Shown: piece by piece, positions 1-10,615 of the stretch
Layout: each line of letters opens with the position of its first letter
Numbering within the stretch: position 1 is the stretch's first letter
DNA from: Lachnoclostridium sp. UBA7482
GTDB taxonomy: Bacteria > Bacillota > Clostridia > Lachnospirales > Lachnospiraceae
Length of the DNA: 11,652 nt
Direction of reading: 5' to 3'
Assembly (NCBI GenBank): GCA_002479645.1
Contig: DLOO01000022.1
Location: 304-11,955 of the forward strand
Notes under the pieces: model-generated
Seen by the model: the letters and a program-made list of their open reading frames with translations, nothing else
Told to the model about the DNA's origin: nothing
Database searches by the model: none
Position numbers and translations under genes: made by a program

Positions 1-22
1 ATGGTCCTGCAATGATTTGTGC
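1..22. repeat. 22-bp exact inverted copy of 297-318 at the window edge
   Basis: Bases 1-22 are the exact reverse complement of bases 297-318, and the match stops at base 23. Both lie inside the isomerase gene. The protein follows the family pattern up to QLYN and then reads AQIIAGP, which is simply this inverted segment translated. The likely explanation is a fold-back chimera or an assembly-graph overlap at a contig end, not biology. Confidence 0.8.
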
Positions 23-598
23 GTTATAAAGCTGCTTAATCGGAGCGTTGCAGGCAAGGAAGTTGAGCGGTCTGGGACCAAAGGAAATAATCTTGAGATT
101 GCGTACGGCAACTACTGCCTTAGCAATCGGAACAAACTCGTTAATCATATCGGCACATTCCTCAGCGGTACCAACCGGGTACTCAGGGATGTATGCTTTC
201 AGATTGCGAAGCTTCAGGTTGTAGCTTGCATTAAGTACACCGCAGTAAGCATCGCCACGGCCATCCATAAGGTCGGCCTGAGACTCCTCGGCAGCTGCAC
301 AAATCATTGCAGGACCATCGAAATGCTTTACAAGCAAGGTCTCAGCAATTTCGGGGCCGAAGTTTCCGAGATATACACAGAGGGCATTACAGCCTTCCTT
401 CTTCAAATCCTCTACGGCTTCCAGCATCTGAATCTCACTCTCTACGATACAGACGGGACATTCGTAAATTTCACTTGCGTCATACTTAGCCTTGTAAGCC
501 TCTACGAGAGCTTTTCTTCTGTTTACGGAAAGACTTTCCGGGAAACAGTCACGGCTGACAGCAACGATACCAATTTTAATTTTTGGCATATTGTTCAT
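1..598 (-). CDS. L-fucose/L-arabinose isomerase family protein, 3' part missing
   Basis: The reading frame runs leftward from ATG at 598 and has no stop before the window edge, so only about 199 N-terminal residues are present; complete family members are much longer. An in-frame TGA directly upstream (602-604) fixes the start at 598 or at the next ATG at 589. The N-terminus reads KIKIGIVAVSRDCFPESL, followed by a Rossmann-like alternation with YLGNFGPE (about residues 76-83), a GRGDAYCG segment (113-120) and ISFGPRP (171-177). This pattern matches the N-terminal domain of L-fucose isomerase-like proteins, which interconvert aldose and ketose sugars in the cytoplasm. The substrate cannot be read from this part, because the metal-binding catalytic residues lie in the missing C-terminal domain. 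Residues 193-199 come from the suspicious 22-base terminal repeat and are probably not genuine. A strong promoter lies about 100 bases upstream. Confidence 0.8.
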   Translation of the reverse strand, partial: MNNMPKIKIGIVAVSRDCFPESLSVNRRKALVEAYKAKYDASEIYECPVCIVESEIQMLEAVEDLKKEGCNALCVYLGNFGPEIAETLLVKHFDGPAMICAAAEESQADLMDGRGDAYCGVLNASYNLKLRNLKAYIPEYPVGTAEECADMINEFVPIAKAVVAVRNLKIISFGPRPLNFLACNAPIKQLYNAQIIAGP

Positions 599-4444: not shown

Positions 4445-4477
4445 CAAATGGGGCTGTGTAAAAAACAGCCCCATTTG
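4445..4477. terminator. Bidirectional intrinsic terminator between convergent genes
   Basis: A perfect 13-bp stem, CAAATGGGGCTGT (4445-4457) with ACAGCCCCATTTG (4465-4477), encloses a 7-base A-rich loop. A T-rich tract follows on the plus strand (TATTTTAA), and on the minus strand the stem is followed by GCTTTTATTT. It sits between the convergent YitT and CotH genes, beginning 10 bases before the CotH stop, and should serve both. Confidence 0.88.
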
Positions 4478-4486
4478 TATTTTAAC

Positions 4487-6910
4487 CTATTTCGTTTCTT
4501 TGTAGACACCGCTGTACATATCCAGGCGGTAAACAAATCCGGAATGAAGCTTCGGTACCGCTACGCTGTCAACGGTTTCGGTTCCGTGCAGTAGGGTTAC
4601 GGTCTCGCCCTCGGAAAAACCAAGCTCGAAGATGATGGCGTCCTCGGGAAGCTGACCCTTGAAGTTGTTACCGTACAGGGTGATGTATTCGCCGGCGGGA
4701 ATGCTTACACCGGCAGGAATATCAAAGCTCAGTTCGCCGTCACTTAAACTGTAGCCGTCCAAAGAAATTGCATTTGCCGTCGGATTCCACAGGGTAACGA
4801 AATCGCTCCGGTTGGAGCTGAATTCATAAATTATCGGTGCGGAAAGCTCTTTGGCGGCGGTGTGAAGGGTAACCTCAACCTTGCCGTCAACGATGTCTTT
4901 TTCGGTGATAATTATAGTCTCGTCGGTCACCTTATTGCCGTTGACCTCCCAGTAATCAAACCGGTAACCAAGCGGCAGAACCGGAGAAATCGTGGTCGCA
5001 TAGTCGACGACATATTTGCCGGAGAAATTTTTTCCGGTCTTGGTGGTGTAACTGTTAACGGTAATGCGGGCTTCTTCCGTAGAAGTAATCTCCAACGAGT
5101 AGTCATCCCCAAGTTCCAGGTTCGTTCTCAGGAAATTCAGAGAGCGTCCGGGGCGTTTTGCCGCGAAATCGTTGATAATCTGAGTAAAGTCATTGAAGTG
5201 GCCGCGGTTGGTCCAAACGGAGGGGTTAAAACTGCCCTCAAGATAATCATAGTAGTATTCCATTTCCTTCTTTCGGTCGTGATTGGCCTGCTGGAGAGTT
5301 GCGGTAATATTCTCCGAGGAAAGGGCGCCGTTGCCGTAATCCAAACTGCGCTTAACAAAGTATTCGCGGCAGTCTGCACGCTTGAGAAGCTGGGCAAAAA
5401 GCGGACAGAAACGACCGTTGTTGCTGCTGTCGCGGAGGAGCTCCTTCAAGGTGTCGTAGGAGGATTTTACTTCTGTCTGGTCGTACAGCCCGAGAGTGTA
5501 GTCGATATCGTGGAGCAGGTAGCGCCAGCGTCCGTCAAATACGGTATCGTTCGTGTAGCTCTCGCCCTCGCTTGCAACATAGCGGTAGCACTTGTAGTTG
5601 TTGTGCGGCCAGTCCTTATTGCAAAGGTAGATATTGTATGCAAAGTAGTCCAGGTAGTTCTCAACGTCCATCCATTTGCAAAGCTCTGCGTAGACGCTGT
5701 CCTTTGTCACATCGCGCGCAACAAAATCCCAGTATGCAGTCTGGTACTGCTCGGCAAGCGCGGTCTTCTCCTCATCATCCTCGTCAGCTTTTTTGAAGGT
5801 GTCGCCGCCTTCAAGCATGTAGAACTCACCGGGCTGTGCGTCGGCGGCGAGCGCCGGATTCCGACCGTATTTGGTCTGGAAATAGTCGTCGCAATAGGTG
5901 GAGTGCAGCCAGAAAAATCCGATGTACTCACCGTTTCGGTATGCGATGGCGGGGAGTATGGCCTCATAATCTTCAAAGCCTGCTGCGACAGCCAGCATCT
6001 GGTTCAATTCGTCACGAACGTAAGCAAACTGGAAATCGTTACCGCTGTTACGGAGCACGAATTTGTCATAATTCAGAATCTGGGTGTTGGAACCATCCAA
6101 ACGAAGCTGATCAAAGCAGGCAAGCCGGAAGGACCCGTGAAGCTTGTCATAGGTCTTGCGGGCGAAGAACTTCATGGATTTCTGGAAGCTTTCGCGGGAT
6201 GCGGCGCCGTAGATACGAACGCCTGCGAACTGGGAAAGCAGCTGCTCGCCGTCACTGGAAATTACCTCCAGGTGAATCGGGCGCTCGCTTTCCTTGCCGC
6301 GCAGCTTGTAGTTGGTTCCGTAAAAAATACCGTTCGGTCCCTTCGTCAGGTCGGCGGGGTCACCGGTGATGCTGAATACCAGGGTGGTATAGCGGCTGTT
6401 CACGCCGGTAGCCAGAAAATACGTATGTACGTAGGTATCTGACTCGGTGCCGTCGTCATAGAAAGCCTTGACGGTAATCGGGTAAGCCTTGGGCTTATCG
6501 CCGATGACAGCCATCAGGGAAATGCCCTTCTTGTCGTATTTTTCAGACTCTCTGGTAGGAGTGGAGCCATCTAACGTATAGTAGATGTCACCGCTCAGAC
6601 GACTGAAAATCTTCAGGGTAAAACCTTCGCTGTAGAAGTAACCGTTGTGAGAAAACATGATGTCGCTCATGTCCTCGGTAAATACAAACTCATCGCCTTC
6701 AAAGTCCGGTGCCTGCGTCGGAAGCGGATCATCATCCGGCGCAGAGGTCGGTGTGGTATTGGCGGCCGTCTGTGTCGGGGTAGCGGCTGTTCCGTCCCCT
6801 TTGTTTGGCTCCTTCTTTGTACCTTTTGAGAAAGCGAAGATTACAATCAAAACGCCTGCGACCAGCAATACTGCAAGACCGATCAGGGCATTACGCTTAT
6901 TTTTGTCCAT
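4487..6910 (-). CDS. Membrane-anchored CotH kinase family protein with CHB_HEX_C and lamin-tail-like domains
   Basis: The protein has 807 residues. A short basic N-terminus and one membrane segment (about 8-27) are followed by a Thr/Pro-rich linker (31-68), so the bulk should face outward. Residues about 85-165 resemble a chitobiase/hexosaminidase C-terminal module (GDIYYTLDGSTPTRESE). Residues about 170-590 match the CotH kinase fold, with GVRIYGAASRESFQKSMKFF, KFVLRNSGNDFQFAYVRDEL, DWPHNNYKCYR (433-443) and LLHDIDYTLG (465-474); D433 and D468/D470 are candidate catalytic or metal-binding residues. Residues about 605-685 resemble a bacterial repeat domain (GYRFDYWEVNG), and 690-790 a lamin-tail beta-sandwich. 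Bacillus CotH phosphorylates spore-coat proteins; the substrate here is unknown. GGAGGA (6920-6915) lies five bases upstream of the ATG. It is the last gene of the VTC-DUF4956-CotH unit, 30 bases after DUF4956, and ends at the terminator. Confidence 0.9.
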   Translation of the reverse strand: MDKNKRNALIGLAVLLVAGVLIVIFAFSKGTKKEPNKGDGTAATPTQTAANTTPTSAPDDDPLPTQAPDFEGDEFVFTEDMSDIMFSHNGYFYSEGFTLKIFSRLSGDIYYTLDGSTPTRESEKYDKKGISLMAVIGDKPKAYPITVKAFYDDGTESDTYVHTYFLATGVNSRYTTLVFSITGDPADLTKGPNGIFYGTNYKLRGKESERPIHLEVISSDGEQLLSQFAGVRIYGAASRESFQKSMKFFARKTYDKLHGSFRLACFDQLRLDGSNTQILNYDKFVLRNSGNDFQFAYVRDELNQMLAVAAGFEDYEAILPAIAYRNGEYIGFFWLHSTYCDDYFQTKYGRNPALAADAQPGEFYMLEGGDTFKKADEDDEEKTALAEQYQTAYWDFVARDVTKDSVYAELCKWMDVENYLDYFAYNIYLCNKDWPHNNYKCYRYVASEGESYTNDTVFDGRWRYLLHDIDYTLGLYDQTEVKSSYDTLKELLRDSSNNGRFCPLFAQLLKRADCREYFVKRSLDYGNGALSSENITATLQQANHDRKKEMEYYYDYLEGSFNPSVWTNRGHFNDFTQIINDFAAKRPGRSLNFLRTNLELGDDYSLEITSTEEARITVNSYTTKTGKNFSGKYVVDYATTISPVLPLGYRFDYWEVNGNKVTDETIIITEKDIVDGKVEVTLHTAAKELSAPIIYEFSSNRSDFVTLWNPTANAISLDGYSLSDGELSFDIPAGVSIPAGEYITLYGNNFKGQLPEDAIIFELGFSEGETVTLLHGTETVDSVAVPKLHSGFVYRLDMYSGVYKETK

Positions 6911-6940
6911 AAAATCCTCCGTTTAAGAGCGCTCCGGGAT

Positions 6941-7603
6941 TTATTCACCGGTAAATTCAACCAGCACGCAATTATTTACGCCCGCAATCTGATTTAATTC
7001 CTCAAGAAATGCGGTATCGTTTTTCTTAACTTTGACCTGTAGGGTAACCTCGGTGGATTCCTTATAGCGGGTCTTGTTTTTTAACTTGCCGGCAAGCCCG
7101 GTAATGACAGCGTTAACCTTTTCAGCCGCCTCGTCCTGATAGCTGATAACCAGCAGATAGGCGCCGCCTGCGGTGCGAAGAAGGGTCAATGCAATATAGA
7201 TAAATGCAAGGAAAATTGAGCCGATGACTGCAAAAGGAACCATACCGGCGCCGGTGGTCAGACCGACAACAACTGCCCAGAACAGAAAACCGACGTCAAG
7301 CGGGTCCTTAATTGCGGAACGGAAACGGATAATACTGAGTGCACCGATGGTTCCGAGAGAAAGCGCCACGCTGGAGCTGATCGTGAGAATAATCATCGCG
7401 GTAATCAGCGATACCATGACAAGCAGTACGGCGAAGTTTTCGCTGTAGCATGCGCCGCGGTAGAAGAAGCGGTATACGATGTAGATGATTGCGGCACAGA
7501 TGACGGTAAAAGTCAGGCACGCAATAATCTGTGCCGGGGTAGTGGAGCTCAGGGAATCTGCCTGCCCCATCAGATTTTTAATCTCGGTTATGTAGTCATT
7601 CAT
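6941..7603 (-). CDS. DUF4956 multi-pass membrane protein
   Basis: This 220-residue protein has about four or five membrane segments (roughly 25-48, 56-75, 77-93, 104-121 and 122-143), then a soluble C-terminal domain (about 148-220). The segment GALSIIRFRSAIKDPLDVGF (87-106) between membrane helices is the hallmark of DUF4956. It is very conserved and carries charged residues (R93, R95, K99, D100, D103) in a membrane context, which suggests a channel, a transporter or a membrane catalytic step. The biochemical function of the family is not known. AGGAG (7614-7610) lies six bases before the ATG. The gene overlaps the end of the VTC gene by eight bases (ATGAATGA), indicating translational coupling. 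Genes of this family are repeatedly found beside VTC-domain and CotH genes, as here. Confidence 0.88.
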   Translation of the reverse strand: MNDYITEIKNLMGQADSLSSTTPAQIIACLTFTVICAAIIYIVYRFFYRGACYSENFAVLLVMVSLITAMIILTISSSVALSLGTIGALSIIRFRSAIKDPLDVGFLFWAVVVGLTTGAGMVPFAVIGSIFLAFIYIALTLLRTAGGAYLLVISYQDEAAEKVNAVITGLAGKLKNKTRYKESTEVTLQVKVKKNDTAFLEELNQIAGVNNCVLVEFTGE

Positions 7604-8372
7604 GACATTCTCCTATCTGTCGCGTGGCGGCTGAAGCCGGATGCGACGGCAAAATGATGTAGTTGGTCCGGAGCTTATCGCAGCATTGGACGAATTTGGA
7701 TACGGCAAGCTTTTGCCCGTTATTTTGCAGGAGCTGTTTTAAGTACATTGGGAAATACCCGCCGTATTTGACTTCCAGGATAACCTCCCGGGAATCGAAA
7801 ATCGGTCGTGTGACCAGATTCGGATCAAACATATCAAGGGTGTTGGTTCCGGCGGCCACCGCCTTATCGAAGGTGATGCGCACCATGGAAAGGGGATGGG
7901 TGTAAGCCTCCCGCTCATACTCAACAATAACGACCGGACGTAAGCCCTTTGTGGTATGCAGCGTGTAAACCTGCTTTGCGAGCGGATGGTCGTACCGTAA
8001 AAGTGATGTGAAATCCCCTGCCAGTATGCCGTCGTAATCCTCACGGGCAATGCGGAGGGAAGACTTCATAATTCGGTCGTCTGCCTTTTCTTTGTTCTCC
8101 AAAACGATATAATCGTCGGAGCCGTTGTAGGCTCGGATGCGGAATTTGTTTCGATGCTGCACGCCGCTGTCCTTTTCCCTGTAAGCGGAATCGAAGGCGT
8201 CGTCCATATACACACTTTGGATTCGATACCCATCCGGGTCAGTCATATTTTTATCCGGCACCAGTATGCCGAGGACCCGCTGCCTCAGCTCCACAAACTG
8301 CGGATAGGTGAGCAGGGTTTTAATCTCATGCCGCTTCGGTCGGTCGACATAGGGATTTTTGTAAAAATGCAT
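7596..8372 (-). CDS. VTC domain protein (polyphosphate polymerase-like)
   Basis: The protein has 258 residues. The VTC domain, a tunnel-shaped triphosphate tunnel metalloenzyme fold, makes polyphosphate from ATP in yeast Vtc4. The expected basic and acidic pairs along the tunnel strands are visible: RHEIKTLL (14-21), KFRIRAY (76-82), VLENKEK (90-96), K103, VIVEYEREAY (148-157), VRITFDK (164-170) and ILEVKYGGYFP (198-208), then SKFVQC (225-230). No membrane segment is seen, so it probably works in the cytoplasm next to the DUF4956 membrane partner. I chose ATG 8372 because a full AAAGGAGG (8392-8385) lies 12 bases upstream and HEIK then comes at the usual distance. The upstream in-frame ATG at 8447 overlaps the -10 hexamer and is upstream of the predicted transcript start. 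Catalysis is inferred from the fold only. Confidence 0.88.
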   Translation of the reverse strand: MHFYKNPYVDRPKRHEIKTLLTYPQFVELRQRVLGILVPDKNMTDPDGYRIQSVYMDDAFDSAYREKDSGVQHRNKFRIRAYNGSDDYIVLENKEKADDRIMKSSLRIAREDYDGILAGDFTSLLRYDHPLAKQVYTLHTTKGLRPVVIVEYEREAYTHPLSMVRITFDKAVAAGTNTLDMFDPNLVTRPIFDSREVILEVKYGGYFPMYLKQLLQNNGQKLAVSKFVQCCDKLRTNYIILPSHPASAATRQIGECHE

Positions 8373-8445
8373 CCTTTCCCGGCACCTCCTTTGGTAAAAG
8401 AACATACATTTCCGCGATTTTTCCCGGGGAAATGCTATGTTTTCC

Positions 8446-8474
8446 ATTATAACTGTTTGTAAAATGCGTGTAAA
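8446..8474 (-). promoter_or_regulatory. Sigma-A promoter of the VTC-DUF4956-CotH operon
   Basis: On the minus strand, TTTACA (8474-8469), a 17-base spacer and TATAAT (8451-8446) form a near-consensus promoter. The predicted start is near 8439, leaving about 65 nt of leader before the ATG at 8372. The -35 lies within the inverted 7-mer GTGTAAA/TTTACAC (8468-8474 with 8491-8497), a possible regulator site. Confidence 0.8.
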
Positions 8475-8515
8475 GGCAAATTCTGTTTTTTTTACACTTT
8501 TTTCTCAAGAGTGTA
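8468..8515. promoter_or_regulatory. Interleaved GTGTA/TACAC half-sites between divergent promoters
   Basis: GTGTAAA (8468-8474) and TTTACAC (8491-8497) are inverted copies 16 bases apart. TACACT (8493-8498) and AGTGTA (8510-8515) are inverted copies 11 bases apart. The first pair covers the leftward -35 and the second abuts the rightward -35. Three copies of the same pentamer in 48 bases suggest a shared regulator, but the half-sites are short and A+T-rich. Confidence 0.4.
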
Positions 8516-8545
8516 TTGACAAAAAGGAATACGCATGTTAATAAT
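8516..8545 (+). promoter_or_regulatory. Sigma-A promoter of the GntR-ABC operon
   Basis: TTGACA (8516-8521) matches the -35 consensus. AATAAT (8540-8545), 18 bases downstream, is the best -10; TTAATA at 16 bases is an alternative. The predicted start is near 8552, inside the palindrome at 8543-8567. The leader is about 70 nt. Confidence 0.7.
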
Positions 8546-8567
8546 GTATATATCCAACATATACATT
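8543..8567. promoter_or_regulatory. Probable GntR operator AATGTATAT-N7-ATATACATT
   Basis: A perfect 9-bp inverted repeat with a 7-base centre overlaps the -10 element and the predicted start of the GntR operon. YtrA-type GntR repressors usually bind palindromes at their own promoters, so autoregulation is the natural reading. Binding by the encoded regulator is inferred, not shown. Confidence 0.65.
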
Positions 8568-8620
8568 TGGGAAGATGGAATAAAGGGACGCCTTTATTTT
8601 ACGACGATTGGAGAACATTC

Positions 8621-9004
8621 ATGAATATTATTATCAGTAATTCTTCCGGTGAGCCTATTTACAGCCAGATAGTGAACCAGATTAAGGCGCAGATTATTGA
8701 CGGAACACTCCCCGACGGAATGGCGATTCCGTCCATGAGAAGTCTGGCGATGCAGTTACGAATCAGTGTTATTACGACAAAGAGGGCTTATGAGGAGCTG
8801 GAGCGCGAGGGATTTATCGAGTCCTATACCGGAAAGGGGAGTTTCGTAAAAGGACAGAATAGGGAACTGCTTCGAGAGATGAATTTGAGAGAGACGGAGG
8901 GCTTAATCGAAAAGGCAGTGAAGAAGGCGAAAATGTGTGACCTGACCCTTGAAGAATTGCAGTCTCTTGTGAAAATCTATTATGGAGGAAACGACAATGA
9001 GTGA
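8621..9004 (+). CDS. GntR family transcriptional regulator, YtrA subfamily
   Basis: This short 127-residue protein has an N-terminal winged helix (about 8-76): GEPIYSQIVNQIKAQIIDGT, then IPSMRSLAMQLRISVITTKR as the helix-turn-helix and YEELEREGFIESYTGKGSFV as the wing. The C-terminal tail (about 80-127) is short, charged and helical, as in YtrA-type regulators that lack a large ligand domain and dimerise through the tail. Such proteins repress the ABC operon they head, and derepression is often triggered by envelope-active compounds. The ATG at 8621 has GGAG (8610-8613) seven bases upstream. The longer frame from TTG 8516 starts on the -35 hexamer and is rejected. The gene overlaps the ATPase gene by eight bases. 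The likely operator is 8543-8567. Confidence 0.92.
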   Translation: MNIIISNSSGEPIYSQIVNQIKAQIIDGTLPDGMAIPSMRSLAMQLRISVITTKRAYEELEREGFIESYTGKGSFVKGQNRELLREMNLRETEGLIEKAVKKAKMCDLTLEELQSLVKIYYGGNDNE

Positions 9005-9875
9005 ATTTGAAAATGCGCTTGAAATTACCGGAATAACAAAGCGTTATGACGGATTTACCCTGGAAAACATCAGTTTTGTTTTGCCGAAGGGGAGCATTAT
9101 GGGCTTTATCGGTCAGAACGGCGCCGGTAAGACAACAACAATCAAGTCATTGCTTAATATTATCGCGGTGGATGAGGGTACCATTAAGATTCTCGGCAAA
9201 GATCACGTGCAGGAGGAAAGGAAGATTAAGGAGGAAATCGCAGTTGTTCTTGACGAACTTCCTTTTGACGACGACCTTACGGCAAAACAAATCGAAACCG
9301 TGTTGAAGCATCTTTACAAGCAATGGGACAACGACCTGTTTTTGAATTATATGGAAAGATTTTCTTTGCCGCTTAAACGAAAGGTCGGCAAGTTTTCTAA
9401 GGGTATGAAAATGAAATTTCAGATTGCAACGGCGCTTTCCCACCATGCAAAACTTCTGATTATGGACGAGGCGACTGCCGGTCTTGATCCGGTAGTGCGA
9501 AATGAAATGCTCGACATTTTTATGGAGTTTTTGCAGGATGAGGAGCACAGCATTTTTATGAGCTCCCATATTACTACGGATATTGAGAAGATTGCGGACA
9601 TGGTAACCTTCATTGATCGCGGGAAAGTGCTTCTGACCGGTGTGAAGGATGAGATTCTGATGCAGCACGGTCTTATGAAGTGCACGATCGAACAGTATCG
9701 GAAGCTGTCGAAGGACGACTTTATCAGCGCGCGTCTTTCCGAAGTCGGCGTAACCGTTATGGTAAATGACCGGGAGGGGATGCGTCAGGCTTATCCGGAG
9801 ACAGTAATCGACCCGGCGACTCTCGAGGAGATTTTACAGTATTATGTGAATCGCAGCAAAAAGGAGTGGAGCTGA
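8997..9875 (+). CDS. ABC transporter ATP-binding protein
   Basis: This 292-residue ATPase should power the two membrane subunits encoded next. Visible motifs are Walker A GQNGAGKTT (39-47), a signature loop read as FSKGMKMK (133-140) in place of the classical LSGGQ, Walker B LLIMDEAT (153-160), D-loop AGLD (161-164) and switch H191. The Q-loop region reads VVLDELPFDDDL without the usual glutamine. Residues beyond about 215 form a C-terminal extension typical of ABC-2 exporters. I chose ATG 8997, since GGAGG (8984-8988) lies eight bases upstream; the in-frame ATG at 8982 overlaps that ribosome binding site. The start overlaps the regulator by eight bases and the stop overlaps the next ATG by one base, so expression is tightly coupled. 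The exported substrate cannot be told from sequence. Confidence 0.93.
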   Translation: MSEFENALEITGITKRYDGFTLENISFVLPKGSIMGFIGQNGAGKTTTIKSLLNIIAVDEGTIKILGKDHVQEERKIKEEIAVVLDELPFDDDLTAKQIETVLKHLYKQWDNDLFLNYMERFSLPLKRKVGKFSKGMKMKFQIATALSHHAKLLIMDEATAGLDPVVRNEMLDIFMEFLQDEEHSIFMSSHITTDIEKIADMVTFIDRGKVLLTGVKDEILMQHGLMKCTIEQYRKLSKDDFISARLSEVGVTVMVNDREGMRQAYPETVIDPATLEEILQYYVNRSKKEWS

Positions 9876-10615
9876 TGAAGGGATTAGTTTACAGAGAGTG
9901 GATATTGTCCCGAAAGATTATCTTTGCAATCTTTTCGGTGGGAGTGCTTTTTGGAAGCGTCGGTTTTCTTATTCTCCTAAGCGCGAAAGTGGGAAATCTG
10001 TCGCTGCTTCCTCCGGAAAATGCAGTTGATACGACAGTTTTATCCTACGTTATGTCGGTAGCCCCCTGCCTGATTATGATGTTCTCGGCTATCGGAGCAT
10101 CTACCGTGATTTTCCGCGATGCGAAGACCCGATGGATGACCTATTCGCATGTACTGCCGGCAACTCCGGTGCAAAGCGTACTGTCGAGATATTGTTTGGC
10201 GGGGCTGGTTCTTCCCATAGCGCTGCTTGCCGGTATGGTTAATGTGCTTGTCATTCGCGGAACAGAAGCGAAGGAAATCGACGGCTACATTATCAGAGCA
10301 ATTTTACTGGGAATGGCAGTTGTGTGTATCGCGCTTGCGATTGAAATTCCGCTTGCCTTAAAATATAAGGAAGTCAATGCGGTAATGGTAAGAATGGCGA
10401 TTCCCGCCATGCTCGCATTTACCGGCGGATTTGTGTTTTTGATGAATAAGGCAAGCAAGCTGGTAGGCGATCCGGACAAGGCGTTTGTGGTATTGGTTGA
10501 TTGGATGAAGAAGTTTATGGATAAGGGAGTCTGGGCATTTATCCTTCTGATACCGATTTCGCTGGGAATCAGTTTTTATATCAGCCTGAGAATCTATAAA
10601 GGGGAGGAACGCTGA
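9875..10615 (+). CDS. ABC-2 type transporter permease subunit (first)
   Basis: This 246-residue membrane protein starts MKGLVYREWILSRKIIFAIF, with a short cytoplasmic amphipathic start and then about six membrane segments (roughly 15-37, 57-80, 107-125, 140-160, 175-195 and 221-241). This is the ABC-2 permease layout. The segment DAKTRWMTYSHVLPATPVQS, between helices two and three, matches the cytoplasmic coupling loop of the family. It probably pairs with the next gene product and the upstream ATPase as an exporter. ATG 9875 overlaps the ATPase stop (TGATG), with AAGGAG (9861-9866) eight bases upstream. A GTG at 9866 would add three residues and lies on the ribosome binding site. Substrate unknown. 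Confidence 0.88.
   Translation: MKGLVYREWILSRKIIFAIFSVGVLFGSVGFLILLSAKVGNLSLLPPENAVDTTVLSYVMSVAPCLIMMFSAIGASTVIFRDAKTRWMTYSHVLPATPVQSVLSRYCLAGLVLPIALLAGMVNVLVIRGTEAKEIDGYIIRAILLGMAVVCIALAIEIPLALKYKEVNAVMVRMAIPAMLAFTGGFVFLMNKASKLVGDPDKAFVVLVDWMKKFMDKGVWAFILLIPISLGISFYISLRIYKGEER

Follow-up and report, generated by a model that had tools for sequence, protein, structure and literature searches.

In an 11,652-nucleotide stretch of the Lachnoclostridium sp. UBA7482 assembly GCA_002479645.1 (contig DLOO01000022.1, positions 304 to 11,955; this whole stretch is called the window below), three minus-strand genes encode a VTC domain protein, a DUF4956 protein and a CotH-type surface protein. Across genomes, VTC and DUF4956 form the core unit and CotH is exchangeable, because DUF4956 stands beside 29 of 31 VTC genes and CotH near just 20 of them; CotH is the commonest exchangeable extracytoplasmic partner of the pair. 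The VTC-DUF4956 unit is real, conserved and functionally linked, partly in print and biochemically blank. We read the whole as a prokaryotic VTC machine, consisting of a polymerase, its DUF4956 membrane partner and an exchangeable surface outlet, and put the probability of this reading at roughly 45%. Its basis is the gene content, the conservation of the active site, the finding that VTC and DUF4956 are almost always paired and diverge in step, and the exchange of the third gene.

The pairing was followed in two samples, one of 199 genomes spread evenly over the phylum, with 31 VTC genes in 25 genomes, and one of the best 80 of at least 586 related loci, which is biased towards the window's VTC. 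PF09359 (VTC) matched in 25 of the 199 genomes and PF16316 (DUF4956) in exactly those 25 (25/25 versus 0/174 elsewhere, Fisher P = 2.5e-32), and CotH co-occurred with VTC in 23/25 versus 4/174 (P = 6.5e-24); the relatedness of the genomes makes both P values too low. Random co-occurrence, which the first-pass annotation had named as a refutation of its idea, is thus not what the genomes show. DUF4956 lies within 600 bp and on the same strand for 29 of the 31 VTC genes, the two exceptions being a genome with CotH between VTC and DUF4956 (G136) and one with both at contig ends (G062). At 79 of the 80 related loci DUF4956 adjoins VTC, with VTC first in 60 and DUF4956 first in 19, and at the single miss (L057) the contig stops 192 bases past VTC. 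Pairwise distances at 83 loci correlate with r = 0.85 between VTC and DUF4956 and with r = 0.50 and 0.53 between each of these and CotH, the latter values being possibly depressed because, at loci with more than one CotH, the top-scoring one was used. The order VTC-DUF4956-CotH is found in all 13 genus genomes examined (the window's and 12 others), and in these 12 the identity to the window's proteins is 66-71% for VTC, 73-80% for DUF4956 and 43-60% for CotH.

The same 3 of 14 control genomes match both PF09359 and PF16316, and the controls C. glutamicum and Methanosarcina acetivorans match all three families, a statement about presence and not gene order. The pair also occurs in an Actinomycetota record (L119), and the trio, described in the first-pass annotation as recurring in Gram-positive bacteria, extends beyond Bacillota. 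In two of the eight plasmid records that match DUF4956, from Hymenobacter, where it stands beside TolC, and from Sinorhizobium pSymA, no VTC was detected beside it (L136, L137).

The third position of the cluster is variable. CotH lies within 4.5 kb of 20 of the 31 phylum VTC genes and within 2.5 kb of VTC in 70 of the 80 related loci, on the opposite strand in three of the 70; the 10 loci with no nearby CotH include four contigs under 8 kb. A different surface protein is encoded at 10 of the remaining 11 phylum sites: Cthe_2159 proteins at six (L082, L083, L084, L088, L099 and L100), a lamin-tail protein at one (L102) and leucine-rich-repeat plus lamin-tail proteins at three (L107, L109 and L112). 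Only one site (L094) has no surface partner, so that 30 of the 31 VTC genes have a surface-protein gene next to them. A hydrophobic signal or anchor starts the window's CotH and all 29 phylum partners examined (19 CotH, 10 others). Repeat, lamin-tail, Fn3 and CotH parts are joined within a single protein at L104, and the window's CotH itself has Fn3-like and lamin-tail parts, so that these parts resemble modules of a single type of surface partner. In a VTC tree of 50 chosen rows (the window's, 30 from phylum sites, 13 from the 80 loci and six from plasmid records), the partner type is clustered and switches six times or more. At four loci (L082, L083, L084 and L138), frames that by eye resemble a response regulator and a sensor kinase stand beside VTC-DUF4956, which suggests environmental control of the pair there.

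The first gene (7596-8372, minus strand) encodes a single-domain protein of 258 residues, a candidate polyphosphate polymerase. Scanned as the longer 283-residue open reading frame, it matches PF09359 with 118.1 bits (cut-off 23, E = 5.7e-34), far above its score for PF01928; CYTH and Imm40 match below the cut-off, and VTC alone above it. All nine Vtc4 active-site residues that could be mapped are retained, and E426 of Vtc4 is matched by motif alone. The mapped Lys, Arg and Glu residues of the tunnel being intact, the first-pass annotation's proviso of a tunnel stripped of catalytic residues does not apply. In fold the protein corresponds to the yeast VTC tunnels, whether these are catalytic or not, and the sequence profile favours Vtc4 (1.9e-9) over Vtc2 (0.03). 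A search of PDB sequences with the VTC protein alone returned just FlhA (E = 0.66). The protein has neither the SPX domain nor the membrane domain of eukaryotic VTC subunits, and no membrane segment was found in it (top 17-residue hydropathy 0.63). Judged by its active site and fold, the VTC protein most likely polymerises phosphate from ATP.

The DUF4956 protein (6941-7603, minus strand, 220 residues) matches PF16316 with 46 bits (cut-off 30.6, E = 6.2e-12). It has about five membrane helices; loop charges put the N-terminus outside and the C-terminus inside, and place the loop with the invariant RFR motif inside; residues 145-220 form a C-terminal ACT-like domain, usually a ligand-sensing fold. 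Compared by hhalign with five MgtC sequences, DUF4956 reached a probability of 97% (E = 7e-11, 194 columns), against 0.1% and 0.6% for two unrelated membrane proteins used as single-sequence controls. DUF4956 is therefore a distant MgtC relative, by remote kinship only, and neither the protein at E 0.01 nor the window's 80% complete genome matches Pfam MgtC (PF02308). Fold searches return mainly the ACT-like part, with elongation factors, which share this common fold, tying with MgtC; the fold evidence thus covers the ACT-like part. DUF4956 showed no kinship to YitT.

The CotH-type protein (4487-6910, minus strand, 807 residues) carries an N-terminal signal anchor, a CHB_HEX_C_1/Fn3_assoc domain (residues 92-134, 6509-6637), a CotH kinase domain (residues 231-587, 5150-6220, by Pfam and alignment) and a lamin tail domain (residues 697-785, 4556-4822), all domains on the minus strand. 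The kinase domain matches PF08757 with 88.7 bits (cut-off 23.8, E = 6.6e-25). D433 and D468 are invariant in 18 aligned proteins, in a region that aligns to 5jd9, and the 18-protein profile matches 5jd9 with E = 6.3e-47; with CotH alone, the PDB sequence search gave only RecA and FLS2, chance matches. In B. subtilis CotH, the D228Q change is inactivating (PMC7821199, available in part). The window's protein shares the kinase domain with that Bacillus spore kinase and differs from it in length, signal anchor and Fn3-like and lamin-tail domains. A role in the spore coat is accordingly unlikely, the spore protein being short and soluble, and the trio also occurs in a genome with no Spo0A_C match (G142); the window's genome does have one. 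Short CotH frames of 365-373 residues were also found, which we take to be the spore type. The window's genome encodes a second CotH with a lipoprotein-like start (L155), unlinked to the trio; genus genomes have one to seven CotH matches (in G210, two of the seven are fragments of a single frame), and in G204 the linked CotH is the sole match.

Taken together, the cytoplasmic VTC protein would polymerise phosphate from ATP in a Vtc4-like tunnel, as its active site and fold suggest. The MgtC-like DUF4956 may dock the polymerase on the inner side of the membrane, receive the polyanion there at its invariant RFR motif, and either help it across or release it on that side. Outside, the exchangeable surface protein, here CotH with its Fn3-like and lamin-tail modules, might bind or use the product, which is the most speculative step. 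The pair is most simply read as a polymerase docked at the mouth of DUF4956; transport we infer. In yeast, basic residues line the channel into which the polymerase tunnel leads, and synthesis and transfer are coupled (PMC9911596, available in part). CotH sits outside the cell, where ATP is scarce, and a donor made inside would therefore be needed. The use of the VTC product by CotH is the weakest link, because CotH is replaced by partners that are not kinases by Pfam. The pathway proposed in the first-pass annotation, in which VTC makes a product, DUF4956 passes it and CotH uses it, thus came through both checks, on co-occurrence and on catalytic residues, but the weight now lies on VTC-DUF4956, which would be the machine, with CotH one outlet among several. 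We regard it as distinctly unlikely that, beyond this, VTC-DUF4956 exports polyphosphate across the cell membrane as an energy-rich phosphate donor to an outside free of ATP, with which CotH phosphorylates surface proteins or polysaccharide, and which Cthe_2159 and lamin-tail proteins bind as a matrix polymer. In bacteria, polyphosphate is generally attributed to PPK enzymes. If the machine exists, it would be a conserved second polyphosphate route with links to both the membrane and surface proteins; such a route would be a source of polyphosphate outside the cytoplasm and could provide surface kinases with a phosphate donor, and DUF4956 would gain its first testable role. PPK1 has no match in the window's 80% complete genome, and replacement of PPK1 by VTC was rejected, as PPK1 is also present in 9 of the 25 VTC genomes (19 of the 174 others).

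Unlikely, in our view, is that the cluster serves surface-polysaccharide synthesis as an accessory, CotH phosphorylating the polysaccharide or a matrix protein or regulating the synthase, with VTC-DUF4956 in support. PelF or PelG genes are present in 31 of the 80 related loci, and in eight of the 80 PelG and CotH share one reading frame (L063 at 6862-9975, Pfam-verified; L018, L020, L051, L055, L061, L065 and L070); the PelG-CotH junction of L063, the one frame read out, has a lipoprotein-like hydrophobic segment. A Pseudobutyrivibrio plasmid trio sits in a glycosyltransferase and acyltransferase cluster, a Planococcus plasmid trio adjoins a HEAT protein and a glycosyltransferase as in NELoc-2 of C. 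perfringens (PMC2879425, available in part), and regulation of Pel by protein phosphorylation has been proposed (PMC7112168, available in part). However, PelG exceeds the cut-off in 5 of the 199 genomes and in just 2 of the 25 with VTC (G105 and G136, in the latter on another contig), by which Pel was rejected as the general purpose; the window's 80% complete genome has no PelG match, and the 10 window proteins scanned with Pfam include no polysaccharide gene and hence no contiguous pel gene.

We hold it unlikely that DUF4956 is an MgtC-like regulator or transporter in a cytoplasmic switch for phosphate or ion homeostasis, for which VTC would make or remove short internal polyphosphate while the surface protein is merely co-regulated: the MgtC kinship and the ACT-like domain would fit, but mere homeostasis does not predict a surface protein beside 30 of 31 VTC genes. 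That VTC instead hydrolyses, as a tripolyphosphatase in the manner of other tunnel enzymes, or forms a Vtc2-like non-catalytic tunnel is improbable given the predominance of PF09359 over PF01928, the profile preference for Vtc4 and the nine retained residues. Three unrelated genes that are neighbours by chance would account for the exchangeability of CotH and nothing else, and this explanation has virtually no prospect of being right in view of the co-occurrence in the 199 genomes, the genus-wide order and the adjacency at 79 of 80 loci; for VTC-DUF4956 it is already refuted.

The trio had been called uncharacterised, which is correct for its biochemistry; it is not unreported. PMC7112168 (2020) counts a polyphosphate polymerase gene, together with cotH, DUF4956 and DUF4832, among the accessory genes of pel and suggests phosphorylation-based regulation, and VTC-type and CotH genes were described together in NELoc-2 of C. 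perfringens (PMC2879425, 2010; PMC11677781, available in part). We found no treatment of VTC-DUF4956 as a unit in the open-licence literature. The PelG-CotH frames seem undescribed in the main text of PMC7112168, because the word "fusion" is absent there and the sole "fused" refers to a His-tag construct. The Gram-positive pel operons of that study share the three families in one cluster, whereas the window has no pel genes, the order VTC-DUF4956-CotH and a CotH with a lamin tail domain. Unlike the window, NELoc-2 has, in the available part of PMC2879425, two VTC copies with glycosyltransferase and HEAT genes alongside. The yeast VTC complex (Vtc4 with Vtc1 and Vtc2/3) likewise combines a membrane-protein partner with a tunnel-type polymerase in which the mapped active-site residues are the same; here, by contrast, the polymerase has no SPX domain or membrane helices, its partner in the membrane is an MgtC-like protein that bears an ACT-like domain, and the site is presumably the cell membrane and not the vacuole. 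The MgtC/SapB/YhiD family resembles DUF4956 in its membrane part, C-terminal ACT-like domain and remote sequence kinship, whereas DUF4956 has no Pfam MgtC match, carries the RFR motif and is tied to VTC. The NELoc-2 membrane proteins of 222 and 226 residues, annotated tubulin/FtsZ, we take to be DUF4956 from their size and place.

In the window, the Pfam scan and reading-frame coordinates confirm the three genes where they had been placed, and the 8-nucleotide overlap of VTC (8372-7596) and DUF4956 (7603-6941) is likewise present; it is not kept among relatives (e.g. L002). Upstream of VTC, a promoter-like site (TTTACA-17-TATAAT, 8446-8474, minus strand) agrees with 11 of 12 consensus bases, by consensus match alone, and an AGGAGG ribosome-binding site read from the sequence (8385-8390, minus strand) precedes the ATG. 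A terminator-like hairpin of 13 pairs lies 3' of CotH (4445-4477, minus strand). Promoter-like site and hairpin would be compatible with the single message earlier proposed, and neither class of site is in excess in the window (5 promoter-like sites versus 4.6 in shuffles, sd 2.6; 7 terminator-like sites versus 4.7, sd 2.3). An Rfam search gave no match. The assembly amounts to 2.05 Mb, and among the matches listed the closest named relatives are Lachnospiraceae metagenome bins.

By Pfam scan, the neighbouring genes are unremarkable and encode an FKBP/trigger-type protein, pyruvate kinase, YitT and a divergent GntR-ABC operon. This operon was rejected as a component of the system: none of 14 loci from the same genus, 12 of which have the trio, shows a GntR or permease match, and ABC matches of only 29-34% occur, kilobases away, in two of them. 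A perfect 9-bp inverted repeat, AATGTATAT-7-ATATACATT, at 8543-8567 overlaps the end of a plus-strand promoter-like site (8516-8545) and is a likely autoregulatory operator of the divergent operon. A gene that begins inside the window and continues beyond its edge (2-598, minus strand) is sugar isomerase-like by eye. The protein encoded at 850-2004 combines FKBP and trigger-factor C-terminal parts; at four of the 14 same-genus loci (L142, L144, L146 and L149) a relative is encoded no more than about 5 kb from the trio, and the protein is perhaps a foldase for the surface protein.
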